Positions 2,924 through 36,957 of a stretch of DNA of 64,000 nucleotides are shown one piece after another; the stretch's first letter is position 1; every line of letters starts with the position of its first letter. Position numbers and translations under genes: made by a program. The notes under the pieces are model-generated. The model was not told where the DNA came from, did no database searches, and saw only the letters and a list, made by a program, of their open reading frames with translations. Origin of the DNA: Gracilibacillus ureilyticus (GTDB lineage Bacteria; Bacillota; Bacilli; Bacillales; Amphibacillaceae); contig NZ_FOGL01000001.1 of assembly GCF_900111195.1 (NCBI RefSeq), positions 496,001 to 560,000 on the forward strand, given 5' to 3'.

Positions 2924-4261
2924 TCACACCTGCAATGCCATGTCGTCCATAACCCGGACAAATTTACCCTGATTATAAGGATAGCCAGCTTTCGTAACTT
3001 TTACACGAACGATTTCGCCAATCATATCCTGTGTTCCCTCGAATTTCACTTTCAAATAATTATCTGAATATCCGACTAACATGTTCGGATTCTCTTCATC
3101 CGCAGTTTCTTCAGGAATCACTTCAATTACCTGATCTTCAAATTGTTTTGCATAGGTTAATGCTTGTTCATTGGAAAGATCAATTAATTGCTGTACTCGT
3201 TTGTTTTTTACATCTTCGTCGACCTGATTCTCCATTCTCGCAGCTGGTGTTCCTGTTCTTCTTGAGAATGGGAACACATGTAATTCAGAGTAGCCGATCT
3301 CTTTAATAAACTGTACCGTTTCCTTGAATTCTTCCTCTGTCTCACCAGGGAAGCCGACAATTACGTCAGAAGTAATCGCAAGGTTAGGCAAAGCGCGTTG
3401 AATTTTTTCCACACGTTTACGGTAAAAGTCTGTTGAATACTTGCGGCGCATCCGTTCCAGAACCGTATCAGACCCAGCTTGCAGCGGGATATGGAGGTGG
3501 GGAACTACTTTCCTGGACTGGTCCAGTACTTCAATTACCTCATCCGTAATCTGGCTTGCTTCAATGGATGAGATACGGATTCGTTTTAATCCGTCTATCT
3601 TTGATTCCAGATCTCTCAGTAATTGAGCAAAATTATAATCTTTCATGTCTTCTCCGTATCCTGCAGTGTGAATTCCTGTCAGGACGATTTCCTTATAACC
3701 TGCATCAACTAATTGCTGTGCCTGTTTCAGTACATTTTCGGGTTCTCTTGAACGCAATAAGCCTCTCGACCATGGAATAATACAGAATGTGCAGAAATTA
3801 TTACATCCTTCCTGTATTTTCAGCGAAGCACGTGTACGGTCGGTAAATGCAGGGACATCCATTTCTTCAAATACACGGTTTTTCATAATATTGGAAACAC
3901 CATTAATCGGCTGACGGTGTTCCTGATGTTCTTCAATATATTGAATCATTTTGCCGCGGTCCTGTGTACCGACAACAATATCCACACCAGGGATCTCCAT
4001 GATTTCTCCAGGCGATGTCTGGGCATAGCACCCTGTAACACAAACTATACCTTCCGGATTACTTCTAATCGCACGGCGTATAACCTGGCGGCTTTTTTTA
4101 TCACCAGTATTTGTAACGGTACAAGTATTAACAACATACACATCTGCATGGTGATCGAAATCTACCCGGTCATAACCTTCATTTTTAAATTTCTGCCAAA
4201 TACCTTCTGTTTCATAATGATTTACTTTACAGCCTAATGTATGAAATGCAACTGTAGGCAT
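2924..4261 (-). CDS. mtaB: tRNA t6A37 methylthiotransferase MtaB
   Basis: 445 residues. It converts t6A to ms2t6A at position 37 of ANN-decoding tRNAs using two [4Fe-4S] clusters and SAM. The N-terminal MTTase domain carries Cys11, Cys47 and Cys78; the radical SAM domain carries CNNFCTFC (Cys153, Cys157, Cys160); a TRAM domain lies at the C-terminus. The start is 4 bp after the rsmE stop with GAGGTGATC before it. This is the last gene of the long heat-shock/translation cluster and corresponds to B. subtilis yqeV. Length and domain order are normal. Confidence 0.96.
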   Translation of the reverse strand: MPTVAFHTLGCKVNHYETEGIWQKFKNEGYDRVDFDHHADVYVVNTCTVTNTGDKKSRQVIRRAIRSNPEGIVCVTGCYAQTSPGEIMEIPGVDIVVGTQDRGKMIQYIEEHQEHRQPINGVSNIMKNRVFEEMDVPAFTDRTRASLKIQEGCNNFCTFCIIPWSRGLLRSREPENVLKQAQQLVDAGYKEIVLTGIHTAGYGEDMKDYNFAQLLRDLESKIDGLKRIRISSIEASQITDEVIEVLDQSRKVVPHLHIPLQAGSDTVLERMRRKYSTDFYRKRVEKIQRALPNLAITSDVIVGFPGETEEEFKETVQFIKEIGYSELHVFPFSRRTGTPAARMENQVDEDVKNKRVQQLIDLSNEQALTYAKQFEDQVIEVIPEETADEENPNMLVGYSDNYLKVKFEGTQDMIGEIVRVKVTKAGYPYNQGKFVRVMDDMALQV

Positions 4262-4265
4262 TTGA

Positions 4266-5018
4266 TCACCTCATTTCTTCAAAATAATAAGATAAGCTTG
4301 ACAGGACATATAGCGGTGCTGTTTCTGTCCGTAGAATTCTCGGTCCCAGTCTCACCGGATGAAAGGAGGCAGCTTTTAGTTGCCCGGCTTCCTTTTCAGA
4401 AAATCCACCTTCAGGTCCAATACAGAAAAACACACGATCTCCTTCCCTGATCTGGGAGAAATAATCATGTAATTTATTACTTTTCTGATCTCTCGCTTCC
4501 TCTTCATACGCAAAAAACTTCCAGTCATATGTTTGGCTCTCTTCTAAGAGAGCAGAAAAGGAAAGCACTCCGTCTACTGATGGAATTTGATTACGATGCG
4601 CCTGTTCACTCGCTTCTTTCACAATCTTTTCCCATCTGCCAATTTTTTTATTTACTTTTTTTGCGTCCCATTTTACAACAGACCTCTCTGCCTGATAAGT
4701 AATGATACGGGAAGCGCCTAATTCTGTTGATTTTTGTAAAATAAATTCCCACTTGTCACCTTTCGGCAAACCTTGGGCAATTGTCACACTAATTGGCGAT
4801 TCAGTTTTGCTGTCAAGCCATTCTGCTACTTCTGCAGTAACCTGCCCATCTTCTACATTCAGGATGGTACAATGTGCGACATTGCCATTCGGATGATTAC
4901 AGAGGATTTCCTCACCTGCATCCATACGCATAACGTTCACAATATGATGAAAATCGTCCCCTGTGATTACTAACTGGTCACCATGCCAATTACCTTCCTC
5001 TATAAAATACCGCTGCAT
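4266..5018 (-). CDS. rsmE: 16S rRNA m3U1498 methyltransferase RsmE
   Basis: 250 residues, SPOUT-class methyltransferase. The N-terminal PUA-like part includes ITGDDFHHIVNVMRM; the C-terminal trefoil knot carries CIGPEGGFSEKE and RLGPRILRTETAPL, the SAM-binding signatures. It methylates U1498 of 16S rRNA. It is 3 bp from prmA upstream and 4 bp from mtaB downstream, so the genes are cotranscribed. It corresponds to yqeU. Nothing unusual is seen. Confidence 0.96.
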   Translation of the reverse strand: MQRYFIEEGNWHGDQLVITGDDFHHIVNVMRMDAGEEILCNHPNGNVAHCTILNVEDGQVTAEVAEWLDSKTESPISVTIAQGLPKGDKWEFILQKSTELGASRIITYQAERSVVKWDAKKVNKKIGRWEKIVKEASEQAHRNQIPSVDGVLSFSALLEESQTYDWKFFAYEEEARDQKSNKLHDYFSQIREGDRVFFCIGPEGGFSEKEAGQLKAASFHPVRLGPRILRTETAPLYVLSSLSYYFEEMR

Positions 5019-5021
5019 TGC

Positions 5022-5972
5022 CTACCTACTTTCTCCTGGCTTTTTCGCAATAATCGATATCCAATCTTCCATTTGATTGACTTCCAGAATGTCAAAACCA
5101 GCCTCTTCCAGACGGTCTTTCACAAGCTGTTTCTTTGCCTGGATTATTCCTGATGTGATAAATAGTCCTCCAGGTTTCAACAGCCGGTATGCATCCTTCT
5201 CAAAGCGCAAAATAATCTCTGCAAGAATATTTGCAACAATGACATCTGGAGATGTATCTACATTATTCAACAAATTATTCTGTTTGACAACTACTTGTTT
5301 ATCAACCTTGTTTACCTTTGTATTCAGCTTAGTGCTTTGAACTGCCACTTCATCAAGGTCGTAAGCATATACTTTACTTGCACCCAGCATTACTGAAGCA
5401 ATACTGAGGACACCTGATCCGCAGCCTACATCAATTACCAGATCATCCTGTTCTAGCAATCTTTCTAATGCCTGCATACTGAGTACAGTAGTAGGATGTG
5501 TTCCTGTACCAAAAGCCATTCCCGGATCTAATTCTATGATGAGTTCATCTGTGGAAACAGGCTTGTAATCCTCCCAAGTTGGTGTGATGGTGATTTTTTC
5601 GGAAATTTTTACTGGCTTATAATACTTCTTCCATGCGGTAGCCCACTCTTCTTCATTAACTTCACTAAGTGTTATCTTATTCAAACCGAGATCAATATCG
5701 TACAGCAATAAATTATTGATCGCCTGTTTGATCTCTGAAACCGTCTCTCCTAGAAAACTATTAACAGGAAGGTATGCTTTCAGCCGCACACCTTCCTCCG
5801 GATAGTCTTCCGGGTTTAGTTCATAGATTTCTCCAAATGGTGCCTCCCGTTCTGCAAACAGATCTTGCTGGTCTTCAATAACGACACCACTTGCACCAGC
5901 CTCATGGATGATATTAGAGATCGGTTCAATTGCCTCATTGGTTGTATAAATACAAAGCTCTGTCCACTTCAA
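5022..5972 (-). CDS. prmA: Ribosomal protein L11 methyltransferase PrmA
   Basis: About 316 residues. It is a class I SAM-dependent methyltransferase that trimethylates ribosomal protein L11, with motif I VIDVGCGSGVLSIA, an N-terminal substrate domain and the post-I region VYAYDLDEVAV. The frame is open from a TTG at 5981, but the TTG at 5972 gives MKWTELCIYTTNEA, which fits the family N-terminus; neither start has a strong ribosome site. It lies 33 bp after the dnaJ stop in the extended heat-shock operon (yqeT in B. subtilis). Confidence 0.93.
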   Translation of the reverse strand: MKWTELCIYTTNEAIEPISNIIHEAGASGVVIEDQQDLFAEREAPFGEIYELNPEDYPEEGVRLKAYLPVNSFLGETVSEIKQAINNLLLYDIDLGLNKITLSEVNEEEWATAWKKYYKPVKISEKITITPTWEDYKPVSTDELIIELDPGMAFGTGTHPTTVLSMQALERLLEQDDLVIDVGCGSGVLSIASVMLGASKVYAYDLDEVAVQSTKLNTKVNKVDKQVVVKQNNLLNNVDTSPDVIVANILAEIILRFEKDAYRLLKPGGLFITSGIIQAKKQLVKDRLEEAGFDILEVNQMEDWISIIAKKPGESR

Positions 5973-21828: not shown

Positions 21829-22413
21829 TTATGGAATTTGAATAAATTCTTCTATGGTCTCGATCGTTTTCCCGCCTATACCGCTCACATTGGATAAATC
21901 GTCCAGCTTTTTAAATTTCCCATATGTTTCACGATAGTTGAGAATTGCTTCTGCTTTTACTTCCCCAATCCCTGAAATTGTCATTAATTCTTCTTTAGTC
22001 GCCTGGTTAATTCTTATTTTTCCATTTGCAGCAGTCCCGGATTGTCCGCCAGACCCTCCTTCTCCTTTAGCAGTAATATAAATGACCATCTCATCATACA
22101 CTCTTTCCGCCATATTAATCGATTCCACCGCGGCATACTCTGTTAATCCGCCTGCCCTGTCAATGACATCAATTACCCGCTCTTCGGCACGAATCTCGTA
22201 AACTCCTGGAAAATTCACCTCACCTTTTATATCAACCATTTTTATTTCGAAAGCTTCCGTATCTGTCACTTGTTCCATTTCCGGCTCACGACTAAGAGAA
22301 ATCTGATTCTGCTCATCCGGTTCAAACCCTTGCCCGAACGGATTGATCAGAAATAAAAGAATGATTACTACTCCTATTAAGGCAATATGCCAATATTTTT
22401 GTAAAACGGTCAT
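21829..22413 (-). CDS. comEA: Competence DNA receptor ComEA
   Basis: 194 residues. One N-terminal transmembrane helix (about 10-27), an SLBB-type domain (KGEVNFPGVYEI), a glycine/serine linker near 120-130 and a C-terminal double helix-hairpin-helix (NQATKEELMTISGIGEVKA, then NVSGIGGKTIETIEEF). It binds double-stranded DNA at the outer membrane face and hands it to ComEC. First gene of the operon, divergent from comER. Confidence 0.96.
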   Translation of the reverse strand: MTVLQKYWHIALIGVVIILLFLINPFGQGFEPDEQNQISLSREPEMEQVTDTEAFEIKMVDIKGEVNFPGVYEIRAEERVIDVIDRAGGLTEYAAVESINMAERVYDEMVIYITAKGEGGSGGQSGTAANGKIRINQATKEELMTISGIGEVKAEAILNYRETYGKFKKLDDLSNVSGIGGKTIETIEEFIQIP

Positions 22414-22503
22414 AAATTCATCCCTTTCACATAGAATGATATAGTTATTTATTCGTAAAGTTAATCAGCTTTTCTTATCGGAAAATAAAAGGAGGCGAAT
22501 AGA

Positions 22504-23331
22504 ATGAAATGGGGAATAATTGGTACTGGTAACATGGGGCAAGTACTTACACATGCATTTGTACAATCACAACTGCTTAACCAGAATGACTTGCACATTA
22601 CGAACAGGACCATCGACAAAGCCTTGCAGCTCAGGGAAACTTATCCGAATATCCATGTTGAGGAAAGTGTAGAGAGCTTAATTGATGCGGTTGATACTAT
22701 CTTCGTTTGTGTAAAACCAAATCAAATGATTCCGCTTTTTAATGAAATAAAACATATAGTAACAGACCAGCAGCTTGTTGTTTCCATTACTAGTGCATTG
22801 TCCGTTGAAGAAATTGAGTCACTCGTTAACTGCAATGTAGCAAGAATGATCCCGAGTATTACGAATCAGTCATTAGCAGGAGTATCATTAGTAACATTTA
22901 GTGACAGGGTCGATATTACAAGAAAAGAACTATTTTTGAAAAGATGTAAAAGTTTTTCTGAACCAGTAGAAATAGAGGAGAATATTGTACGGATTGCATC
23001 AGATATTGTCTCATGCGGACCTGCCTTTTTTGCATATTTAGCTCAGAAATTTATTCATGCGGCAAGTGAGTCTACCGAAATAACACAGGAAAAGGCAACA
23101 ATACTAATGGAAAAAATGTTTGAAGGTTTCGGGACACTGCTCGCAGACAAACATTTCAGCTTAGAAGAGTTAATTGATAAGGTTTGTGTGACGGGAGGCA
23201 TTACCGGTGTAGGTATATCCAGTCTGGAGAAGAATGGTGATGACCTGTTCACCCATTTAATCAGGGAAACCCATCACAAGTTTGATGAGGAAAAGAAAAA
23301 CATCGCAAAAGAAATCAATCATTTCACTTGA
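22504..23331 (+). CDS. comER: ComER, pyrroline-5-carboxylate reductase-like
   Basis: 275 residues. N-terminal Rossmann motif GIIGTGNMGQV and the P5CR-type C-terminal dimerization domain with CVTGGITGVG. It is divergent from comEA exactly as comER in B. subtilis, where the protein affects biofilm formation and sporulation rather than proline synthesis. AGGAGGCGAATAGA precedes the ATG. Enzyme activity is not certain. Confidence 0.92.
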   Translation: MKWGIIGTGNMGQVLTHAFVQSQLLNQNDLHITNRTIDKALQLRETYPNIHVEESVESLIDAVDTIFVCVKPNQMIPLFNEIKHIVTDQQLVVSITSALSVEEIESLVNCNVARMIPSITNQSLAGVSLVTFSDRVDITRKELFLKRCKSFSEPVEIEENIVRIASDIVSCGPAFFAYLAQKFIHAASESTEITQEKATILMEKMFEGFGTLLADKHFSLEELIDKVCVTGGITGVGISSLEKNGDDLFTHLIRETHHKFDEEKKNIAKEINHFT

Positions 23332-23390
23332 TAACATTATACTTTACAAGTTAACAGATTACCAGTCATATCTGGCGTTTTCCTATGATA

Positions 23391-23431
23391 AAAAGGATGG
23401 AGCTGGGCAATATGCCAGCACCTTCCTTTTT
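23391..23431. terminator. Bidirectional terminator comER / GGDEF gene
   Basis: Long stem: AAAAGG-TGG-GCTGG against CCAGC-CC-CCTTTT with single mismatches and a 6-nt loop, flanked by A and T tracts. Convergent gene ends on both sides. Confidence 0.8.
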
Positions 23432-23442
23432 TAATGGAGAGA

Positions 23443-24981
23443 TCAGTATACTTCTACTTCGTCCCTGCCTCCATTTTTTGCTCTGTACAATGCCTGATCA
23501 GCTTCATTGTATGCTCTTTCGAATGTAAATAAATCGTTGTGGCTGTTTGTTGCTATTCCAATACTTACACTTATCACTTCTTCCTCCAATTCAGTGACAC
23601 GAATTGGCTGGTCTGCCAGGAGTTGCTGAAATTCTTTAGCTATTCTGATCGTATCGTCCACACCTTTATCGATTAACACAGCAAATTCTTCCCCGCCAAT
23701 CCTGCCGACAGTCGATTGTTCACTCTGTCCTGAGAAGAAACTGTCAAGCAGTAACGCTAATTTCTGTAATACCTGATCACCTACTATATGACCATAATTA
23801 TCGTTAAATTGCTTGAAATAATCTACATCAAGGAGCAAAAAAGAAAAATCGCTATTGGAGTTCACCAGCTCATTGAATTTTTCAATAAACGATCTTCTGT
23901 TTGAGATACATGTTAATTCATCATGATGTGCTAACTGGTATAACTTTTGTTCAATTAATTTCATTTCTGTCAGGTCTGTAATAACGACAAGCAGCATTCC
24001 ATTTTGTTCATTACCTAGTGGCACAATATTAAGCTGGAAATACGATGTATGGGATTTCCATTCAAATCGTATGTCTTCCCGGTTTACAACAGGCATAATT
24101 ACTTCCTGATCTTGCTGGAAGATTTCCGAGACATGCCTGCCTAACAGCTGATCAGAACTGGCGTCCCATTGGAAAGTTTGCTGTAAAATCCGGCTGCCCG
24201 AATGGTTTATTTCGATCAGTCTGTTGCTGTAATCAAATAAAAGAATACCCTCATCCAAAGATTCCAGTATTTTATGTCTGGAAACAGGCCAGATCGAATT
24301 TAAATCATATCTTTTGTTAACAATAACAAGCAATATCGCCATGAACGTAAACGATAATGCCATTTTCCCTGGTACATTGTATGGAATAAAGGAGAATAAC
24401 ATAGTAAAAACAAGCGGGATGCATATGGCAACAGCAGAAAAAATATGACTCCATCGGTAATTGACCGGTAAGTCACCCATGTTCCGCAATAATAAAACAA
24501 CGGTGAAAAATGTTAAAAAAGTGGGATATACCGAAAGAACCATCCCTAGTCTTGTTGGCATAACTGCTATTTCCGTGAGGTTCCATATTTCCTGGATTCC
24601 AACACTCTCTCTCATCCATCCATGCCACTGGTTAGTAAATATAAGAAGAACGGACAAAACGGAGGGAATCGCAAGGATGTAAACATACTTCATTGTTATT
24701 TTATGATTTTGTTTATACAATTCTCTTGCATAACCAAACAAAATAACAGGACACAAATATAAGGAAACCTGCTGAAGGTTGCGGAGCCATAACATTAGCT
24801 GATAATGTTCAAATAATAACTCTAAAGCAGTAAAAATAATAAAAAGACTGATTAACAATAACGAAGTGGATAATAAAATGCGGCTAAGTGTTCTTGGTTT
24901 CTTTAATAAAATAATACCAACAAAAAAAAGCAACAAGCCAAAAATTGACAAATAATATGTATATGGCTCCATCCAATCCAA
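23443..24981 (-). CDS. Membrane diguanylate cyclase, 7TM-PAS-GGDEF
   Basis: 512 residues. Seven predicted transmembrane helices in residues 1-225 (histidine-kinase-type N-terminal 7TM), a PAS-like region at about 230-340 (ILESLDEGILLFDYSNRLIEINHSG), then a GGDEF domain at 345-512 with GRIGGEEFAVLI. The active-site GGEEF is intact, so synthesis of c-di-GMP is expected; no RxxD inhibitory site precedes it. TTG start 8 nt after GGAGG. It follows the PP2C/pterin operon on the same strand after 182 bp in which no clear terminator is seen. Confidence 0.88.
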   Translation of the reverse strand: MDWMEPYTYYLSIFGLLLFFVGIILLKKPRTLSRILLSTSLLLISLFIIFTALELLFEHYQLMLWLRNLQQVSLYLCPVILFGYARELYKQNHKITMKYVYILAIPSVLSVLLIFTNQWHGWMRESVGIQEIWNLTEIAVMPTRLGMVLSVYPTFLTFFTVVLLLRNMGDLPVNYRWSHIFSAVAICIPLVFTMLFSFIPYNVPGKMALSFTFMAILLVIVNKRYDLNSIWPVSRHKILESLDEGILLFDYSNRLIEINHSGSRILQQTFQWDASSDQLLGRHVSEIFQQDQEVIMPVVNREDIRFEWKSHTSYFQLNIVPLGNEQNGMLLVVITDLTEMKLIEQKLYQLAHHDELTCISNRRSFIEKFNELVNSNSDFSFLLLDVDYFKQFNDNYGHIVGDQVLQKLALLLDSFFSGQSEQSTVGRIGGEEFAVLIDKGVDDTIRIAKEFQQLLADQPIRVTELEEEVISVSIGIATNSHNDLFTFERAYNEADQALYRAKNGGRDEVEVY

Positions 24982-25163
24982 ATTTCACGCCTCCAAGGTA
25001 ACCCTTTTTCCAAGTGGATAAGGGCATATTTATTTAATCCCGATCGTGAGGTCTTTTCGTTTTAAGCAGGAGTTATCCTTAATTTTATAGCAATTAATCA
25101 TACTTTGCCATATTTTTTTCACTAAAATTTGGTCAACTATTCATTTTTTTCCTTTCCGTCTTA

Positions 25164-26006
25164 CTAAGTTAACGGAGAATCACAGCAGTCTGCTTGTGCG
25201 TTTACTCTGTTTACTTTCATTGTCACCATTGTGATATCATCTTTTTGAGGCAGCCCTCTGGTAAATTCAATAACCGATTGTTCCACCGCTTCCTCCAGTG
25301 TTTTCACGTCGAGATGAGCATTTTCCAACAATACTTGCTGCAGACGTGTTAATCGATACATATCCCCTGATTGATTTTGGGCTTCTGTAATTCCGTCTGT
25401 ATAAAAGAACAATACATCTTCCCCATCTAAATATACGGCGCTTTGCTTATACACAACATCAGGTATACCGCCAAGCATTACTCCGCCTGCATGAGGGATG
25501 TTCAAGAAACACTCTTCCGACCGGATGACTAGTGGTAAACAATGGCCGGCACTCGCATAGCTCAATTCTTTCCGCTCCGGATCCCAGTCTGCACAAAGTA
25601 CGGTAACAAAAGAACCAAGTGACCGTAAGTCATCATATATGGCATGATTCATTATTGTTAATATTTCTGCAGGACCGCTTGCTTTTTCAGCAGCACTCCG
25701 GAATGCACCTCTTGTTAAAATCATTAGCATCGCTGCGGGTATACCTTTTCCCATCACGTCACCTATAATGATTCGTAACTTACCGTCAGGAAGCTGATAA
25801 AAGTCAAAATAATCTCCGCCTATTCTTCTGGCTGGAATAGAAATTCCGGAAACTGTCCCATTTTTCAGCTGGGGTTTATCACCATTTAATAATTTCATCT
25901 GGATATTGCGGGCAAGTTTAATTTCTCTGACCAGTGTTTTGTCAAGCTCTGTATTCTCATTTGTATGGCCCTTTTCATGATGGAACAATTTAATCACCTG
26001 CCTCAA
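25164..26006 (-). CDS. SpoIIE/RsbU-type PP2C phosphatase
   Basis: 280 residues. A short helical N-terminus (EIKLARNIQMKLL, a RsbU-like linker) leads into the PP2C domain: RRIGGDYFDFY, IIIGDVMGKGIPAAML, YASAGHCLPLV and FFYTDGITEAQN supply the metal-binding aspartates. No sensor domain is attached. Such enzymes dephosphorylate a STAS protein; the STAS gene directly upstream overlaps this one by 17 bp, so they are translationally coupled and probably partners. Last gene of the operon. Confidence 0.9.
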   Translation of the reverse strand: MRQVIKLFHHEKGHTNENTELDKTLVREIKLARNIQMKLLNGDKPQLKNGTVSGISIPARRIGGDYFDFYQLPDGKLRIIIGDVMGKGIPAAMLMILTRGAFRSAAEKASGPAEILTIMNHAIYDDLRSLGSFVTVLCADWDPERKELSYASAGHCLPLVIRSEECFLNIPHAGGVMLGGIPDVVYKQSAVYLDGEDVLFFYTDGITEAQNQSGDMYRLTRLQQVLLENAHLDVKTLEEAVEQSVIEFTRGLPQKDDITMVTMKVNRVNAQADCCDSPLT

Positions 26007-26316
26007 GTAATGACTCTATAATCTGATAAACACCTAATGTAACAAATAATTTATGAAAATCCTCATGAAGTCCCTCCAGTTTAATATGAAACTTTTGAGC
26101 TTTTGCTGTATGAATTAGATTAATAATATTGCCGGTTCCTGTGGAATCAATAAAAACCATTCTGTTAAAATTTAATATTACCAGCTTTGTATTCTTCCCT
26201 ATTTTCTCTAATTCTTTTAAAAAAATATCCGTTGTGGTGTAATCCAGCACTCCATGTAAATAAATGGTACATACCGAACCATTCTGCTCTAATTCTATCT
26301 CTAATTCTTCATCCAT
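25990..26316 (-). CDS. STAS-domain anti-anti-sigma-like protein
   Basis: 108 residues, a single STAS domain. The phosphorylation motif FIDSTGTGNI puts Ser58 (or Thr59) at the usual position. Family members in unphosphorylated form sequester a switch kinase. The gene lies between the ACP gene (30 bp upstream) and the overlapping PP2C gene. The probable kinase partner is the ATPase at 27620-28528. No sigma factor is encoded nearby on this operon, so the final target is unknown. Confidence 0.9.
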   Translation of the reverse strand: MDEELEIELEQNGSVCTIYLHGVLDYTTTDIFLKELEKIGKNTKLVILNFNRMVFIDSTGTGNIINLIHTAKAQKFHIKLEGLHEDFHKLFVTLGVYQIIESLLEAGD

Positions 26317-26346
26317 TCCTTTACCTCCCCTGTCCCTATCTTATTC

Positions 26347-26571
26347 CTATTTGAATAATGTACGATACAGCTGAAATGGAGTTGAGTAATGATCGGGATG
26401 CATGATACGGGTCATATCTGTGTTCGTTTTCTCTGTGATTTCGATAAGTAAGTTAACCATTTGCAGTGAATCAATTCCTATATCATCTTTAAAAGATGAA
26501 TCGGGTTCAATGCTTTCTGATGGAATGTTACTAATCCGGGAAATGTGCTCAATAAACTCTTCCATTGTCAT
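26347..26571 (-). CDS. Acyl carrier protein-like protein
   Basis: 74 residues with the phosphopantetheine site GIDSLQMVNLL (Ser35). It is acidic and helical, but unlike AcpP it ends in an aromatic/basic tail (PFQLYRTLFK). Its ATG overlaps the stop of the upstream hydrolase (TAATG), so the two are translationally coupled. An ACP beside an alpha/beta hydrolase suggests an acyl or aminoacyl thioester intermediate that the hydrolase releases or transfers; this is inference. Confidence 0.88.
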   Translation of the reverse strand: MTMEEFIEHISRISNIPSESIEPDSSFKDDIGIDSLQMVNLLIEITEKTNTDMTRIMHPDHYSTPFQLYRTLFK

Positions 26572-27614
26572 TATTTTACACCCTCTTTACACCACTCCGC
26601 TGATATGGAGCGAATCTCATCCAGTTTATAATTACAGCAATGACCTTCATTCGGGTATATTTTCCACTCACTTTTCTGAGGAAGACGGGAAATCAACCGG
26701 TTAATATCCTCCTGTTTAACCAGCACATCTTTTGCGCCGTGAAATAATAGTACAGGTTTATGTATTGTCAGTTTATCGACAATTGGGAGGACAGCTTTAA
26801 CGTCCTCTGTCACCGCATTTACCCGTTCATTAAAATAATCAGGCATTTTCAAGTCAGAGGAGATGGATGGACTAACAGAAATTACCTTTTTCACCACTTC
26901 ATATTTGGCCGCTTCAATTGCCCACAATGCACCTGAACTAGTTCCAAAAAGATAAACGGACATGCCGGGAAAGGTGGATTTTACCATTTTCATCAGTTCA
27001 TCTAAAAAGAGCCGATAACTTCCTGTACTCAATTTCCATCCATTCAGCAAGGTTTTTCCTTGTCCAGGTCCATCAAAACATACGGTAGAGAAACCGAGGC
27101 GAAAAAAATGATCCTCATAAGAAAAAAGCTCTTCAGCCGTTGAATCAATTGGTGTAAGAATGATCATCACTTTAGATGTGTTGCTGTTCCTTCTTATTCG
27201 ACCATAACTGCTCTGGTTACCGCTTTTTATTTCCGTATAGATGAGAGTATTATCAAGCAATTGATCAGCCAATTGGGAGGTTTCTGACATTTTGCTGTAC
27301 CAGTATTTCTTTTCATCACAAATGCTAGGAAAAATCCATTGACATAAATTATAGCAAAGACTTGCCTGATAATAGTTCCGCAATGCATTGCCACGCGTGC
27401 TGCCACTAGCTGAAACTGCCAATTCATTGTATGTAATGGCCTTTGCTTCAAAATAATTCAGCCAATCTTCCAGATGGTTAATCTGCTTCATTGCTTCCAT
27501 CATTGTGGACCGCGACAGTCCATGCACAATCCATCTGTCCCAGAATCCGGAAAAAAGCCTGGCTGTCATTATTGTCTTCTCAATGGTTTGAACAGATCTG
27601 CTTGTTATCCTCAT
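26571..27614 (-). CDS. Alpha/beta hydrolase (FrsA/dipeptidyl-peptidase-like fold)
   Basis: 347 residues. An N-terminal helical region of about 130 residues precedes the hydrolase core. Nucleophile elbow LFGTSSGAL gives Ser226; VLLFHGAKDVLV gives Asp296 and NEGHCCNY gives His325, a complete triad. The oxyanion-region motif CFDGPGQGKT resembles FrsA/esterase-type proteins with helical N-terminal domains. It starts 5 bp after the ATPase gene and overlaps the ACP gene. The substrate is unknown; an ACP-bound thioester is possible. Confidence 0.85.
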   Translation of the reverse strand: MRITSRSVQTIEKTIMTARLFSGFWDRWIVHGLSRSTMMEAMKQINHLEDWLNYFEAKAITYNELAVSASGSTRGNALRNYYQASLCYNLCQWIFPSICDEKKYWYSKMSETSQLADQLLDNTLIYTEIKSGNQSSYGRIRRNSNTSKVMIILTPIDSTAEELFSYEDHFFRLGFSTVCFDGPGQGKTLLNGWKLSTGSYRLFLDELMKMVKSTFPGMSVYLFGTSSGALWAIEAAKYEVVKKVISVSPSISSDLKMPDYFNERVNAVTEDVKAVLPIVDKLTIHKPVLLFHGAKDVLVKQEDINRLISRLPQKSEWKIYPNEGHCCNYKLDEIRSISAEWCKEGVK

Positions 27615-27619
27615 TCTAT

Positions 27620-28528
27620 CTAGTCCTTTTCCGCTAAAAGTAAAATAAGTGAAGAGCCCTGATCAGATGTTTCCAAGAGAATTTGCCTGGACATTTTCAT
27701 CATTAAGGTAAATCCCTGACCAAGAGAGTCCTTCGTTGAAAAACCTGCCAGCAAAGTCGTTTTCGGTAAAATGTCTAAAGGAAAGCCGGGTCCGTTATCT
27801 TCAACGACTACCCTGAATTCACCCTGATCATAATAAATATACATTTTCCCGTTGCCGGCATGTTTGATCACATTTGTGACAGCTTCAGAAATGATCAAAT
27901 GATAACTCATAATTTTGGCGGAATCCAGACCAAATTGTTCGAAGGCCTGTTTCGCTGTATTCCTGGCGACCGAAATATCCTGCTTAGTCTTAATCACTTT
28001 TTCGCATAAAAGCAGCCCATTTTTATATTGATTAATCTGCTCAGATGTTGTGAGAAGCAGTTTTCCCTGTGTTGCTGAATAAATAACATCCCTGTATATC
28101 TTCCAGTCACTATCTCTGTTTTCTTTTGTTCTTGCTTTTTCATTTATCTGTACTTGTTGTAACACCCTGCTAAAATGGCCGGCAAATGGCTTGGATAGAG
28201 CTGATTTCTCCACTTCATTCTCAATGATCTGGTCGTTTTTTATCCAATTCAGTCCCTCTTCCGCCAACTCATACCATTGATAAATTTGCGGATTATTTAT
28301 TTCTTTTTTTGACCGGATTTGTTGCAACTGAAGGAATAAACCGTTTTGTATATCCGCTTCCAAATCTTCAGCTAGTTGACTGACGATCCATGCAATGGTA
28401 AATCTTTCTTTCATATGCTCATAAGAATGTTCCAGTAAATGAGAGGAAGAAACAGCGGTATCGATGTCAGGTCTATGTATGTTTTTTTCTTTATCTCTTC
28501 GTCTCTGAAAAAATTTTCTCATCACCAT
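27620..28528 (-). CDS. RsbW/RsbT-like ATPase with N-terminal helical domain
   Basis: 302 residues. The C-terminal 110 residues are a GHKL serine-kinase type ATPase: N-box SEAVTNVIKHA (Glu215, Asn219), G1 box EDNGPGF (Asp244) and G2 region GFSTKDSLGQGF. The N-terminal 180 residues are helical and not assigned. RsbW/SpoIIAB proteins of this type phosphorylate STAS partners. Most are about 140-160 residues, so the long N-terminal domain is unusual and could bind the pathway enzymes or a signal. Ten bp separate it from the SDR gene. Confidence 0.85.
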   Translation of the reverse strand: MVMRKFFQRRRDKEKNIHRPDIDTAVSSSHLLEHSYEHMKERFTIAWIVSQLAEDLEADIQNGLFLQLQQIRSKKEINNPQIYQWYELAEEGLNWIKNDQIIENEVEKSALSKPFAGHFSRVLQQVQINEKARTKENRDSDWKIYRDVIYSATQGKLLLTTSEQINQYKNGLLLCEKVIKTKQDISVARNTAKQAFEQFGLDSAKIMSYHLIISEAVTNVIKHAGNGKMYIYYDQGEFRVVVEDNGPGFPLDILPKTTLLAGFSTKDSLGQGFTLMMKMSRQILLETSDQGSSLILLLAEKD

Positions 28529-28538
28529 TTATCCTTTT

Positions 28539-29243
28539 TTATAGAATTCCTCTAGGCGGCATGATAGTAATTTCGTCGATGGTTACGTTTTTAGGCTGAT
28601 TTATGAGAAATAATAATTGGGATGCAACAGTTTCTACCGGAATCATTGAAGATTTATCCATTTCCAGCGGGATATTATCCCAAAACGAACTGTCAACGGC
28701 ACCTGGTAATACAGAGGTAACCTTAACACCTTTCCTTCTTAACTCAAGCTGCAGCACTTTCGTTAACCCGTGCACACCAAATTTTGAGGCGGTATACCCT
28801 CCATTTCCCTGTAATGGAGTAATTCCAGCAATGGAAGAAAGATTCAAAATTTGACCATCTTCCTGTTCTACCATAACTTTACCATAATATTTGCAAGTTA
28901 AGTACGTTCCGCGCAAATTTACTTGCAACATTTGGTCAAAGTCTTCTGTGGAAGATTCGATCAACTCCCCAAATGTTCCCACACCTGCTGAGTTCAGCAA
29001 AACATCTATTTTACCGAAAGCTGCCAGGCTTTTTTCAGTGAATTTTTGGACAGATGCTTCATCGGTTACATCAATATAAAAGCAGACATGTTTCTGGTGG
29101 TCGTTGAATTCCTGCTCTATTGTTTCGATATTTCTCGCACCAAGCATTAACTTCGCACCATGTTCTTTTAAAAGACGGGCAGTTGCTAAGCCGATTCCTC
29201 TGCTTGCACCAATGATTACAACGACTTTATCCTGCAAACTCAT
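28539..29243 (-). CDS. Short-chain dehydrogenase/reductase
   Basis: 234 residues, classical SDR. The cofactor motif GASRGIG, NSAG, the catalytic serine region NLSSIAG and YTASK are present; the basic residue in GARN after beta-2 suggests NADPH. The start ATG overlaps the PTPS stop by 4 bp. Next to a pyruvoyl-tetrahydropterin synthase, a sepiapterin-reductase-like ketone reduction of a pterin side chain is a plausible role; general acyl/keto reduction linked to the ACP is the alternative. Confidence 0.9.
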   Translation of the reverse strand: MSLQDKVVVIIGASRGIGLATARLLKEHGAKLMLGARNIETIEQEFNDHQKHVCFYIDVTDEASVQKFTEKSLAAFGKIDVLLNSAGVGTFGELIESSTEDFDQMLQVNLRGTYLTCKYYGKVMVEQEDGQILNLSSIAGITPLQGNGGYTASKFGVHGLTKVLQLELRRKGVKVTSVLPGAVDSSFWDNIPLEMDKSSMIPVETVASQLLFLINQPKNVTIDEITIMPPRGIL

Positions 29244-30067
29244 CCGTGAACTGTCTCCTCTTCATTTATATACTCAAAATAGTTCTTCTCCGTTTCCCAA
29301 ACACCAATACGGTATAATTTGGGGATATACGGTTTTAACATATCATAGACAACCTTTGCCATCACTTCTGATGTAGGATTCAGTCCTTTGAACACCGCTG
29401 TATCGAGATTCAGATGTTTATGGTCAAATTCCTCTAGTACAATTTTTTCCACAATTTCGTCCAAATCCGCCATGTTAATCACCATCCCTGTTATGTTGTC
29501 AGGTATCCCCTTCACCGCCACATCTAAATAATAGTTGTGTCCGTGACCATACGGGTTGTTGCATTTACCGAAAATTCTCTCGTTTTCTTTATCAGACAAT
29601 TGATCACTATGCAGACGATGGGCAGAACTGAAATGATATCTTCTCGTAAATGTGACCATATCACCTTCCTCCTTTTCAGAAAATAAATAATGATTTTCGT
29701 ACAGTTTAAGGCGGTTTAGAGAGCAATTTTCGAGAACTTGTGAAATCGCTTCCCAAAGATATGCAACAATATTCTCAGCTGTAGGAATATTCTGCTTAAA
29801 ATAAGGGTGCTCCTCATTTAAAAATTTTCCATCCAGTTCCTTGTCGATCAGGTTCCCGACTGCCAGCTTTATATCTCCCGTATTGACAACCATTCCTGTA
29901 TGATTGTTTAATTTCCCTTTTACCATAACTTCCAGTTTATAGTCATGACCATGACCATTTCTGTTACTGCATGGTCCAAACACCTGGCGATTCTTTTCCT
30001 CAGTCCATGAATCAACTCTGTAACGATGCATTGCGGAAAAATCAATTCTTCTGGATATATACAGCAA
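29240..30067 (-). CDS. Tandem 6-pyruvoyl-tetrahydropterin/QueD-like synthase
   Basis: 275 residues with two PTPS domains. Domain 1 (1-135): His14, Cys33, His39/His41 (GHGHDY), Glu124. Domain 2 (139-270): His150, Cys169, His175/His177 (GHGHNY), Glu258 and the Asp215-His216 pair in FDHKHLN. Domain 1 has LDGKFLN at the equivalent place and so lacks the catalytic histidine. Substrate is expected to be dihydroneopterin triphosphate. The frame stays open to an ATG at 30277, but that ATG has no ribosome site and sits about 9 nt from the predicted transcription start; the TTG at 30067 has GGGGAGGT 7 nt before it and begins just before the domain, so it is preferred. First gene of the operon. Confidence 0.85.
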   Translation of the reverse strand: MLYISRRIDFSAMHRYRVDSWTEEKNRQVFGPCSNRNGHGHDYKLEVMVKGKLNNHTGMVVNTGDIKLAVGNLIDKELDGKFLNEEHPYFKQNIPTAENIVAYLWEAISQVLENCSLNRLKLYENHYLFSEKEEGDMVTFTRRYHFSSAHRLHSDQLSDKENERIFGKCNNPYGHGHNYYLDVAVKGIPDNITGMVINMADLDEIVEKIVLEEFDHKHLNLDTAVFKGLNPTSEVMAKVVYDMLKPYIPKLYRIGVWETEKNYFEYINEEETVHG

Positions 30068-30133
30068 GGTTGCTACCTCCCCGTGTGTTTTTTTTAATAA
30101 GTTTGGATTCGTCAGTTTCAAGTATGAAAGTAT

Positions 30134-30166
30134 AAAAATGAATCCACCAAAAAACTTGGCGGATTC
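30134..30166 (-). terminator. Terminator-like hairpin in the PTPS operon leader
   Basis: Minus strand 10-bp stem (30166-30157 with 30151-30142, one G-U), 5-nt loop, then CATTTTTAT. It lies about 120 nt after the predicted transcription start and 67 nt before the TTG start. This placement is that of an attenuator. Confidence 0.6.
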
Positions 30167-30292
30167 TGAATGGACAATGATGTGAACAGGATACAGCTGA
30201 CTGTACTTGATGATAATCCTATCCCAATTATCGATTATGTAGGTAAAATCAACTAATGAGATTGCGATTTTAGGCATATATACTTATATTTA

Positions 30293-30321
30293 ATTTTAAA
30301 CGAAAGCACCCTTGCTGTCAA
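30293..30321 (-). promoter_or_regulatory. SigA promoter of the PTPS-ACP-STAS operon
   Basis: Minus strand TTGACA (30321-30316), 17 bp, TAAAAT (30298-30293): near-consensus. The transcript would have a leader of about 220 nt before the TTG start. Confidence 0.75.
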
Positions 30322-30367
30322 TACAAAATACCGCCACCCGCGCTTTCGCTAAGCTTTCTGCAAACTT

Positions 30368-31183
30368 TTATTCCCCGTTAATTTGAATCAAGCTGATCTG
30401 TGCCTGATTCAAAAAGCGAACAGGTAATCTTGTCGTACCTGCGCCACTGTCGATATATAGTAACTTCCCCTTATCCCACTCAAATAAACCTTTGTCGAAT
30501 TTTGGGAAAACCCCTTGATCTGGAACGATTACAGAGCCGATAAATGGAAATCTGATTTGACCGCCATGTGTATGACCGCTTAACACTAAATCTATGTTCG
30601 TACCTGACAGTTCCCTGACGGCATTTGGTATATGGGAAAGCAGTATAGTGAAAGTACAATTATCTTTCTTAATCATTTGTTTTACATGAGTATTGTTTCC
30701 GTAATTTTTGCCAAGACCAATTATCTGAACTTCATCCCCATTAAAAGGTATCGTAATATGACTGTTATCCAAAATCTTTACATGATGTTTCTCCAGCAGA
30801 TTGATCAGCTCACTTAAATATGGATTATCCCACTCATGGTTACCTGTAATAAAAAAAACCTGGTTATTAATGTTCTTCAGTTCTTTAACCAGACAGAAAA
30901 TGGAATGAAAATCTGTTGTCTTTCTGTCAATTAAATCACCTGTTAAAACAATCACATCTGCCTTTACCTTTTTGATTTGCTTAAGCAGTCCTTTATGATC
31001 TTTACCAAATGTCCTGTTGTGAAGGTCACTAATCTGCAAGATCGACAACTGGCTTCCTTTTCGCAGTTTATTTGTCATTAATGTGACGGGATTTATTTTT
31101 ACCACATTCGTGTCATAGTATATCTTCCCCACTACAGCTGCAGCAGATAAAATCCCTGTCACCCACATCATCTTCTTAAACAT
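30368..31183 (-). CDS. Membrane-anchored metallophosphoesterase
   Basis: About 271 residues, YkuE/YaeI-like. An N-terminal signal anchor is followed by calcineurin-type motifs: ISDLHNRTFG, VLTGDLIDR, FITGNHEWD, LSHIPN and LSGHTHGGQIRFP, which form a two-metal centre. Related enzymes act outside the membrane; the YaeI/LpxG branch acts on lipid substrates. The ATG at 31183 with AGGTGG 7 nt before it is chosen over a GTG two codons earlier. It is transcribed in the same direction as the PTPS operon but has an own-promoter gap between. Confidence 0.88.
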   Translation of the reverse strand: MFKKMMWVTGILSAAAVVGKIYYDTNVVKINPVTLMTNKLRKGSQLSILQISDLHNRTFGKDHKGLLKQIKKVKADVIVLTGDLIDRKTTDFHSIFCLVKELKNINNQVFFITGNHEWDNPYLSELINLLEKHHVKILDNSHITIPFNGDEVQIIGLGKNYGNNTHVKQMIKKDNCTFTILLSHIPNAVRELSGTNIDLVLSGHTHGGQIRFPFIGSVIVPDQGVFPKFDKGLFEWDKGKLLYIDSGAGTTRLPVRFLNQAQISLIQINGE

Positions 31184-31361
31184 GACCACACCACCTAATC
31201 TACCGGATCGAACTCATTTTTCTTCCCATAATATCACCGGTTTATTTTAACAATTTTTGTTTTTAAAAAAATTTTGAGAATTATGTAGTAATTTTAATGT
31301 TTTTTTCGTCTATTGTACAGAGAGAACAGGAAGGGGGGAGAGAGCTATTCACGATGACGTA

Positions 31362-31886
31362 TTGATAAGCAAAGTAAGATCAGGCAACAAGCAGGCATTA
31401 CGGATGTTAATAGAAAACTATAAACATCATATCTACAAGATCGCCTATAGTGTGGTACATAATGAAAAAGATGCGGAAGACATCGCACAGGAAACCTTTA
31501 TTAAAATGATTGACGCTCTCCCTTCCTATCAAAATCAGGGATTTAAAACATGGATTAGTAAGATAGCTTTACATAAAGCAATTGATGCAAAAAGGAAGAA
31601 ACAACGCAAACAGGAAGAACTGACGAGTTTTGAAGAAGATTATTTATTTCCTGATGAAGGTCGTGTGGATGAAATGATAGTAGAAAAAGAAAAGACCCAG
31701 CTTGTACAATCAGCAATTAACCGAATGCCGGTCAAATTCCAGCAAGTGGTCAGGCTGTATCACCTTGAAGGACATTCCTATAAAGCAATTGCTGACAGGC
31801 TTGATTTAAAGGAAACCACCGTTAAAATGAGACTTTACCGCGCAAGAGTCTGGATGAAGGAAAATTGGAAGGAGGAGGATTTTTGA
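31362..31886 (+). CDS. ECF-type RNA polymerase sigma factor
   Basis: 174 residues from the TTG at 31362. Sigma2 region IENYKHHIYKIAYSVVHNEKDAEDIAQETFIKM and sigma4 region MPVKFQQVVRLYHLEGHSYKAIADRLDLKETTVKMRLYRAR are clear. The strong purine-rich site (AAGGGGGGAGAG) is about 20 nt from this TTG; an in-frame ATT at 31347 is correctly spaced and would add IHDDV, which fits the usual N-terminus of the family. The anti-sigma gene overlaps its stop (TGATG). YlaC-like organisation. Confidence 0.9.
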   Translation: MISKVRSGNKQALRMLIENYKHHIYKIAYSVVHNEKDAEDIAQETFIKMIDALPSYQNQGFKTWISKIALHKAIDAKRKKQRKQEELTSFEEDYLFPDEGRVDEMIVEKEKTQLVQSAINRMPVKFQQVVRLYHLEGHSYKAIADRLDLKETTVKMRLYRARVWMKENWKEEDF

Positions 31887-32314
31887 TGGATCATATACCT
31901 AAAGAAATATTAAACAAATATTGTACGCATCAACTATCTGAAGATGACCAGTCCAGGATTGATCACCATTTAACAGAATGTGAACAATGCTTCTCCCTTT
32001 ATCTTGAAGTGATCGATAACTTTACTGTGGAACATTCAGTTACAGACACATTTACTGATCTGACGATAACAAAGATAGAAACATCCCATATATTTGATCA
32101 GGATAAACTGCAAAAAAACAAAAAGCGTCGTATCATGGGACATTATTTCCTTGCTGCAGGCCTTACCTTGTTATTCACCTTCAGCGGATTGTTTGAAGAA
32201 GTGATACAGATAACCAGCGAAACAGGAAAGCAAAAGCGGATTTCTGTTTCTGAACAGTTAATGAACAAAACGAATGACATACTTGACCAAATGAAGGAGG
32301 AGAACAACAAATGA
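31886..32314 (+). CDS. Zinc-finger anti-sigma factor
   Basis: 142 residues. An N-terminal ZAS domain with HHLTECEQC (the H-x3-C-x2-C zinc motif) lies in the cytoplasm, and one transmembrane helix (about 93-112) anchors it. The start overlaps the sigma stop and has GGAGGAGGATTTTTG before it; the frame begins seven codons earlier at a TTG, which is less likely. It would hold the ECF sigma inactive at the membrane. Similar in layout to YlaD of B. subtilis. Confidence 0.87.
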   Translation: MDHIPKEILNKYCTHQLSEDDQSRIDHHLTECEQCFSLYLEVIDNFTVEHSVTDTFTDLTITKIETSHIFDQDKLQKNKKRRIMGHYFLAAGLTLLFTFSGLFEEVIQITSETGKQKRISVSEQLMNKTNDILDQMKEENNK

Positions 32315-35763: not shown

Positions 35764-36957
35764 CTATTTTCCTGAGAACATTGATTTTTGAAATATGCTG
35801 ATCCATTTTGCGAAGATGCCTTCTTCATTTACTTCCACTTCCTGCAGGTCAGGAGAGTATAGTTTGTAATTGTTCTTCCCGTTATTTTTAGCAAAATACA
35901 TTGCCTTATCAGCATTTTTTATCAAGGTTTCCTTGTCATCCCCATCATCGGGATACATACTGACACCGATACTTACAGAGATTCTCGCTTCATTTTCTCC
36001 AAGAATATATGGTTTTGTTGCTGACTGAATGATTCTTTTTGCGATTTCTTCTATTTCCTTTTTAGTAGTTTCTTCAAAAACAACGATAAACTCATCCCCG
36101 CCAATTCTGGCAATCAAGTCTTCTTCTCTTGTACAATGACCAAGTCTCTCTACTACATCAACGAGTAACTGATCTCCTGCATCATGGCCCAATGTATCGT
36201 TTACCTGCTTAAAATCATCGAGATCAACAAACATTAAGGAAAAACTGTGGTGATGCCTCTTAGAACGAGCGAGTGCTTTCTTCACATGGCGGTCAAGCAT
36301 TTTTCTGTTTGGCAGATCTGTCAGATCATCAAAATATGCCATATACCGCAGTTCATTTTCCAGTTCTTTCTGTGTCGTAATATCCATAAACTGTCCATTA
36401 ATTTGCGTAATCATACCACGATCATTTGTAATAGGCTTAGACACTTTTGTAACCCACTTTTCCCCTTCTGTCGGATGAATAATCCTGAAGTCAACTTGGA
36501 CCGCATTCCCGCTATGTAAAAGAGCTTCTGATTCCGCTACCTTTTCTCGATCATCTGGATGGATGATACCTTTCCAAAGTTCCCCATTTGTAATGAACTG
36601 ATTTTGTGTCAGCCCGAATAATGACTCAACACCTTTTGAGAACCTTGATTTCTGTTGAATAACGTCATACATAAATAAAGTTACCCCGTCAAATGAGTTG
36701 AAAAACTGTTCAAATTCCTCGACTTTCCTTGTTAACGAGTCGATATGTCTCACTAAATTTTCCTTTTCTTTTACGGTAACCTGGTATTCCGAAGCCTTCC
36801 GATCAAGCCTCTGTCCCATCCAAATAATTGTTATCAGGAACAGAATAAGCGTGCCGTCTATCCAATGAAAATTATGCCCTGTAATGATTTGAAAGAAAAT
36901 TACTGTTACGGAAAGGATGATTGCGATCAATGTGGTTATCAAACCTGTTTTTTTCAT
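35764..36957 (-). CDS. Membrane diguanylate cyclase with PAS domain
   Basis: 397 residues. Two transmembrane helices in residues 8-50, a coiled linker, a PAS fold with PAC motif (EKWVTKVSKPITNDRG) and GGDEF at 215-375 with LIARIGGDEFIVVFE. An RxxD inhibitory site (REED) stands before the active site, so product inhibition by c-di-GMP is likely. It is the only one of the three intact GGDEF proteins here with that site. No EAL domain. Confidence 0.9.
   Translation of the reverse strand: MKKTGLITTLIAIILSVTVIFFQIITGHNFHWIDGTLILFLITIIWMGQRLDRKASEYQVTVKEKENLVRHIDSLTRKVEEFEQFFNSFDGVTLFMYDVIQQKSRFSKGVESLFGLTQNQFITNGELWKGIIHPDDREKVAESEALLHSGNAVQVDFRIIHPTEGEKWVTKVSKPITNDRGMITQINGQFMDITTQKELENELRYMAYFDDLTDLPNRKMLDRHVKKALARSKRHHHSFSLMFVDLDDFKQVNDTLGHDAGDQLLVDVVERLGHCTREEDLIARIGGDEFIVVFEETTKKEIEEIAKRIIQSATKPYILGENEARISVSIGVSMYPDDGDDKETLIKNADKAMYFAKNNGKNNYKLYSPDLQEVEVNEEGIFAKWISIFQKSMFSGK

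Follow-up and report, generated by a model that had tools for sequence, protein, structure and literature searches.

A conserved Bacillales locus that groups pterin enzyme genes with a predicted partner switch

What does a partner switch act on when it is encoded together with pterin enzymes and without a sigma factor? The question is raised by a seven-gene operon in a 64,000-nucleotide stretch of the Gracilibacillus ureilyticus genome (assembly GCF_900111195.1, contig NZ_FOGL01000001.1, positions 496,001 to 560,000), which is called the window here and is numbered from its first base. The genes are intact and run head to tail on the minus strand from 30067 to 25164, encoding in order a tandem 6-pyruvoyl-tetrahydropterin synthase (PTPS), a short-chain dehydrogenase (SDR), an ATPase, an alpha/beta hydrolase (ABH), an acyl carrier protein (ACP), a STAS protein and a PP2C phosphatase, with successive spacings of -4, 10, 5, -1, 30 and -17 bases. 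Each product exceeded the Pfam cut-off of its family (tandem PTPS, SDR, HATPase_c_2, alpha/beta hydrolase, PP-binding, STAS and SpoIIE/PP2C), bearing out the initial annotation, which had named these families and the operon from the DNA letters. As described below, the operon is a reduced form of a locus conserved in Bacillales. We propose, with a probability of about 0.4, that this locus is a reduced-pterin circuit acting through the partner switch on a cyclic di-GMP (c-di-GMP) or flagellar output and not on a sigma factor.

Conservation of the locus across Bacillales

Named genomes were scanned for the ATPase, and 34 of 51 pattern matches were confirmed, giving 34 loci in 32 genomes (L024 and L025 share one genome, and L040 and L047 another). 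The loci were found in Gracilibacillus, Oceanobacillus, Virgibacillus, Ornithinibacillus, several Bacillus relatives, Domibacillus, Paenibacillus, Cohnella and others. In its full order the locus encodes GTP cyclohydrolase I (FolE), PTPS, SDR, ATPase, ABH, ACP, an AMP ligase, a sensor, STAS, PP2C, FapA and a second STAS protein (STAS2), some loci being rearranged or split. Families were counted with bit-score cut-offs that we chose, below which the PP2C of L034 and the FapA of L043 fell because they are truncated by the locus ends. Across the 28 loci with a tandem PTPS, SDR, ABH and STAS were always present, FolE, the sensor and PP2C were each counted in 27, FapA and STAS2 in 24, the ligase in 23 and ACP in 21. 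The 28th locus with respect to FolE (L045) has a 67-codon fragment of the gene, and the window has no FolE gene. Of the six loci without PTPS, L024 has, from these twelve families, the ATPase, ligase and sensor, and in L053 the SDR gene lies at the very edge of the locus, so that PTPS may lie beyond it.

A search that started from PTPS, and was thus independent of the ATPase-based collection, found PTPS in 9 of 398 Bacilli genomes. Among the eight carriers other than the window genome, seven had contiguous FolE-PTPS-SDR-ATPase genes. Wider regions around the PTPS matches covered six of these eight, of which five reached ABH and the sensor, two of them with ACP and the ligase; L116 differs. The initial annotation had regarded the seven genes as a unit, for which it suggested a gene-neighbourhood check, and the genes do recur together, mostly in the same order, across genera and families. 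The grouping is therefore beyond chance.

The window operon is reduced, but several of its missing partners are encoded elsewhere in the genome. In Gracilibacillus halophilus (L064, on the same contig as L028) the operon occupies the same chromosomal place, between proC and a phosphoesterase gene, and extends from FolE through the ligase and sensor to PP2C. In the window genome two further contigs carry such genes: one has a ligase and a sensor gene behind a TAXI-TRAP transporter, the other FapA-STAS2. The locus of Oceanobacillus salinisoli is split likewise (L024 and L025), and among the members compared its ligase and sensor are the closest to those of the window genome (51 and 66% identity). 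The TAXI and TRAP proteins of the two genomes are 63 and 69% identical, O. salinisoli being the sole species compared. The window ACP is also closest to that of O. salinisoli (83 bits versus 69 for Gracilibacillus lacisalsi), whereas for PTPS, SDR, ABH, STAS and PP2C the nearest counterparts are those of G. lacisalsi. This pattern of similarity hints, weakly, that ACP may follow its ligase.

Predicted roles of the encoded proteins

The second copy of the tandem PTPS matched the solved chains 3i2b (3e-32) and 1b66 (1e-31), which we take to be human and rat PTPS, while QueD-type chains matched at 8e-10 or weaker, in agreement with the tetrahydrobiopterin-like PTPS of the initial annotation. Copy 2 keeps the Cys, the Asp-His and the zinc His in all 12 aligned members. 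In copy 1 Gly replaces the active-site His in the same 12 of 12, and this copy is nonetheless strongly conserved (the roles given here to PTPS residues are those we assume). The same annotation had read PTPS and SDR as the last two steps of a tetrahydrobiopterin-like route. The PTPS part of that reading stands; for the SDR, a sepiapterin-reductase-like role is putative, the chain named sepiapterin reductase (2bd0) ranking 12th of 129 Protein Data Bank (PDB) matches at 1e-20. With regard to FolE, a search with PF01227 left FolE-I unmatched in six Gracilibacillus genomes (the window genome G000 and G024, G026, G030, G031 and G159) and gave one match each in G025 and G160, the operon copy. Folate and pterin supply in the Gracilibacillus genomes without FolE-I must use another enzyme, perhaps FolE2.

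The hydrolase and ACP had been taken together as signs of a carrier-bound acyl or aminoacyl group, an interpretation that comparison of the loci changed. ABH, whose nearest solved chains are DHPON hydrolase and AntI, was present in 29 loci and ACP in 21, and ABH goes with PTPS and SDR, not with ACP. ACP instead groups with the AMP ligase (together in 20 loci), and since both are missing from several otherwise full operons, the acyl part is optional. A carrier-bound acyl pathway as the core of the locus was accordingly rejected, ABH occurring without ACP and ligase in L037, L038, L047, L051, L053 and L119 to L121. The AMP ligase was unmatched in the PDB at 1e-40, and the NCBIfam matches listed for two AMP ligases (25 models each) were all below cut-off.

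The ATPase, STAS and PP2C proteins had been described as a complete kinase, antagonist and phosphatase set, and the motifs for catalysis or phosphorylation are kept in all three. By sequence the ATPase domain is nearest to SpoIIAB, and by fold to SpoIIAB/RsbW; its N, G1 and G2 boxes are intact, and the nucleotide-binding box residues are invariant in 33 aligned members. The F-DSTG motif of STAS is conserved in at least 90% of 33 aligned sequences. By their motifs, the three proteins form a three-part partner switch in which phosphorylation and partner exchange are predicted. RsbU/RsbV/RsbW and SpoIIE/SpoIIAA/SpoIIAB are the same three-part switch with a sigma factor as output. The present locus differs from both in having no recognised sigma factor and in the added pterin genes.

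The sensor protein lacks any output domain known to Pfam. Its model (mean pLDDT 82) has low-scoring structural matches to dCache domains of chemoreceptors, to McpH, which binds uric acid, and to the periplasmic part of Chlamydia RsbU, the last being a further likeness to the RsbU system. A fusion of the sensor domain to GGDEF-EAL is encoded immediately upstream of the tandem PTPS in L116 (E 1.7e-69 in a one-sequence search), and in L059 a related sensor is also fused to GGDEF-EAL.

The target of the switch

Within Bacillota, the ATPase family was found at 1e-25 in 42 of 398 genomes. All six long forms tested (L067, L069, L071, L076, L080 and L089) are fused to HD_5; each has an HD-x-GK motif, and all except L089 have the G-x-G-Y/F-P motif, which we take to be a mark of HD-GYP domains. 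L075 is a HAMP-ATPase fusion, and in L085 and L094, the two loci scanned for it, a separate HD_5 gene without G-x-G-Y/F-P lies just upstream of the ATPase. GGDEF genes were about 9-fold enriched in the 34 named loci, with 15 genes in 11 loci compared to 1.74 expected from 268 genes in 85.4 Mb of 18 genomes; L053 has two within the cluster. Flagellar genes adjoin 4 of the 34 loci, namely fliD and fliS in L039 and motA and motB in L025, L026 and L031. Pfam confirmed FliD/FliS in L039 and MotA/MotB in L058, which covers the L031 place, and L025 and L026 were assigned by similarity to those. FliG was present in 9 of 9 PTPS carriers versus 266 of 389 other Bacilli (P 0.034). Flagellar superoperons include FapA (PMC11607428). 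The FapA domain is common to both settings, but the variant found with the present locus differs in carrying a Jag_N domain (L027) and in adjoining a second STAS protein. Together, the HD_5-ATPase fusions, the sensor-GGDEF-EAL fusion and FapA point away from the pathway's own enzymes and towards c-di-GMP and flagella.

Within the conserved clusters we recognised no sigma factor. The initial annotation had likewise found none in the operon and had suggested as target either a distant sigma factor or, as the more interesting option, an enzyme of the pathway; a target other than a sigma factor remains the better reading, and the choice of a pathway enzyme does not, given the evidence for c-di-GMP and flagella. 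Candidates for a sigma factor within the cluster, open reading frames (ORFs) of 242 to 260 amino acids after the switch genes, were rejected as an EAL protein (L025) and a LytTR response regulator (L030); the corresponding ORF of L035 also looks, by reading, like a LytTR response regulator.

We therefore favor the following scheme. PTPS, SDR and ABH, with FolE in most relatives, would make a product that we presume to be a reduced pterin, which the ligase and ACP may modify in some lineages. The dCache-like, HAMP-type sensor, whose gene is part of the operon in relatives but lies at another locus in the window genome, would read this product as its presumed ligand, or a related condition, presumably outside the cell, and would weight the PP2C phosphatase against the SpoIIAB-like ATPase. 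In this presumed order and direction of events, the phosphorylation state of STAS would then decide whether the ATPase holds STAS or its real target, the latter being most likely a protein that turns over c-di-GMP or controls flagella (FapA/STAS2, HD-GYP-type or GGDEF partners).

Several observations weigh against this scheme. Of the twelve families, L031, L039 and L049, which lack PTPS, have only the ATPase, sensor, STAS, PP2C, FapA and STAS2, the Gracilibacillus oryzae locus L021 retains the ATPase alone, and the switch module without pterin genes recurs in other Bacillota. The switch thus does not need pterin, and pterin would be either an extra input to it or an extra product. One of the seven contiguous PTPS carriers (L110) has an internal stop in PTPS, and FolE-I (PF01227) was unmatched at 1e-10 in the whole window genome in a search that did not extend to FolE2, leaving the pterin supply of this genome unproven. 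As to the sensor, the HAMP matches in the window genome are below the Pfam cut-off (21.2 of 25 bits), the L022 sensor was unmatched by any Pfam family, and the dCache matches are weak (TM to target mostly 0.3 to 0.5) and fix no ligand. Histidine kinases can carry the sensor-type domain too (L056, L057 and L060), so that it is not specific to a c-di-GMP or flagellar output. GGDEF genes lie near only 11 of the 34 loci, and the P value of 6e-10 for their excess is optimistic because the loci share ancestry. FliG within the family was present in 17 of 17 versus 131 of 142 genomes (P 0.28), which makes flagella weak as a presence/absence partner. Finally, a gene for an extracytoplasmic function (ECF) sigma factor lies at 31362-31886, beyond the phosphoesterase gene next to the operon.

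This ECF gene bears on a classic arrangement in which the ATPase would act as anti-sigma factor on a sigma factor from another locus, with the pterin enzymes merely sharing the ATPase promoter. The likeness to SpoIIAB and RsbW noted above would fit such a role, as would a FapA paralogue encoded immediately after a sigma-70 family gene in a region of che genes (L103) and the zinc-finger gene adjoining the ECF gene (zf-HC2, 21.6 of 22.2 bits). However, the ECF gene is on the opposite strand and outside the cluster, ECF sigma factors are usually served by zinc-finger anti-sigma genes, the conserved clusters are free of recognised sigma factors, and the fusions observed are to HD_5 and HAMP in the ATPase family and to GGDEF-EAL and kinases in the sensor; we therefore regard a sigma factor target as unlikely. 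That the switch acts directly on one of the operon's own enzymes (PTPS copy 1, ABH or the ligase) and so sets pterin output appears less likely again. The tight linkage of the switch to the pterin enzymes would favor it, and PTPS copy 1, with Gly at the active-site His yet strongly conserved, is what a docking or regulatory domain would look like, but the switch is present without pterin enzymes in L031, L039, L049 and other Bacillota.

Much the same low credence is given to a biosynthetic cluster for a metabolic pterin cofactor or a natural product, in which the regulatory module would only time expression or use. The enzymes of a tetrahydrobiopterin-like route, the AMP ligase, ACP and AntI-like hydrolase are compatible with this, and so are the TAXI-type TRAP transporters, which adjoin the ligase in L024 and L063 and lie 6 kb away from PTPS in L116, and the DctPQM set within the L034 cluster. 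A pterin-using oxygenase is not, however, among the twelve recurrent families, and the enzymes are no more constant than the sensor, STAS and PP2C. It is very improbable that QueD-type queuosine genes lie beside a stress switch by chance: the window PTPS does pass the TIGR03367 QueD model (120.7 versus a cut-off of 89.25 bits), but copy 2 is far nearer to solved PTPS than to QueD chains, and the gene order is conserved across genera and families.

The circuit favored here resembles parts of known systems. In Pseudomonas aeruginosa the SiaABCD partner switch, made of phosphatase, kinase and antagonist, controls a diguanylate cyclase and not a sigma factor, and pterin, ACP and FapA genes are not noted in the accessible text of its descriptions (PMC7647112, PMC8457831). 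Unlike SiaABCD, the present locus encodes sensor and phosphatase as separate proteins, and its PP2C and GGDEF proteins are far below the SiaA and SiaD cut-offs (44.2 of 700 and 112.1 of 290 bits). In Agrobacterium a reduced pterin made by PruA, a pteridine reductase, is sensed in the periplasm and changes c-di-GMP; this proteobacterial system uses a PruR binding protein and a single diguanylate cyclase-phosphodiesterase, DcpA (PMC13259868). The present locus, from Bacillota, differs in combining a tetrahydrobiopterin-type route with a dCache-like sensor and with a partner switch, and no PruR (SUOX-type) domain was found among the scanned cluster proteins, the scan being limited to the clusters and not the whole genome. 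A more specific version of our scheme, namely a PruR-free Bacillota circuit in which a released, modified reduced pterin would act through the dCache-like sensor and the partner switch on c-di-GMP and FapA-dependent flagellar control, with the sensor-GGDEF-EAL fusion beside PTPS in L116 as a shortcut, is doubtful. In Acinetobacter a PTPS gene is required for surface motility, and the authors of that work link the gene to folate (PMC7997844). The present locus shares features with SiaABCD, PruA-PruR-DcpA and the FapA superoperons and, beyond the three-part switch, belongs to none of them. The combination had been thought not to be described, and no description of it was found in the open-licence literature, most subscription papers being outside the search.

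According to a 2026 review, biopterin is rare in bacteria, and pterin signalling is described there for Proteobacteria (PMC13259868). If a locus retained by many Bacillales does couple a tetrahydrobiopterin-type route to a partner switch, this would extend pterin signalling to Gram-positive bacteria and would suggest a function for the widespread Bacillota ATPase-STAS-PP2C-FapA module. It would also make the role of bacterial PTPS outside folate and queuosine directly testable, and the neighbours of the locus suggest that the switch may tune swimming or surface living.

Promoter, leader and neighbouring genes

The single near-consensus promoter foreseen for the operon was confirmed (Table 1) and is the best of 25 promoter-like sites in 22400-31500. 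Shuffled sequences gave 30.2 such sites (standard deviation 5.1), and as there is no excess, the case for this promoter is its own quality. The PTPS ORF as listed begins at 30277, and a TTG codon at 30067 sits behind GGGGAGG at the start position of the relatives. TTG 30067 is most likely the true start, which leaves a leader of about 210 nucleotides. The leader holds a hairpin of 12 pairs with a T-rich tail (30166-30140, minus strand; fold z -2.16, with 5 of 200 shuffles folding equally well) that could be an attenuator. A riboswitch was rejected, as Rfam gave zero matches up to E 1 across 22400-31400.

Table 1. Features of the operon region in the window
Feature	Position	Strand	Basis
Promoter TTGACA-17-TAAAAT	30293..30321	-	11/12 matches
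Leader, ~210 nt	30068..30292	-	12-pair hairpin with T-rich tail
Tandem 6-pyruvoyl-tetrahydropterin synthase	29240..30067	-	Pfam, PDB comparison, alignment
Short-chain dehydrogenase (SDR)	28539..29243	-	SDR motifs kept
ATPase/kinase, helical N-terminus and SpoIIAB/RsbW-like domain	27620..28528	-	HATPase_c_2 match, fold comparison
Alpha/beta hydrolase (ABH)	26571..27614	-	Nucleophile, acid, His triad motifs kept
Acyl carrier protein (ACP)	26347..26571	-	DSL serine conserved
STAS antagonist	25990..26316	-	F-DSTG phospho-site motif kept
PP2C/SpoIIE-type phosphatase	25164..26006	-	Metal-binding Asp motifs kept
7TM-PAS-GGDEF diguanylate cyclase	23443..24981	-	GGEEF motif read in sequence; PAS match below cut-off

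The 7TM-PAS-GGDEF gene is codirectional with the operon and follows PP2C after a gap of 182 bases. In the G. oryzae locus (L021) the ATPase gene is followed by an orthologue, and none was found after the operon in the G. lacisalsi and G. halophilus loci. The encoded protein is a possible output of the operon. A second PAS-GGDEF gene lies at 35764-36957 on the minus strand, about 5.5 kb beyond the operon start, with a similar gene in L021.

The ECF sigma gene and the zinc-finger (anti-sigma-like) gene together occupy 31362-32314 on the plus strand, and similar genes are in the same place in L021. The FapA paralogue that follows the sigma-70 family gene is a shorter form, encoded in the window genome (L103, 5324-7464).

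Outside the class, among the short Bacillota loci L085 to L097 (L089 alone being within it), the order ATPase-STAS-PP2C-STAS without pterin genes was seen in 11 of 13. A gene for an N6_N4 DNA methylase-like protein of about 440 amino acids lies in or beside the pterin cluster in L043 (8891-10219), L045 (4787-6112) and L116 (2352-3668). In L118, a multi-PAS histidine kinase gene (3576-5798) is located between FapA and STAS2 within one operon.

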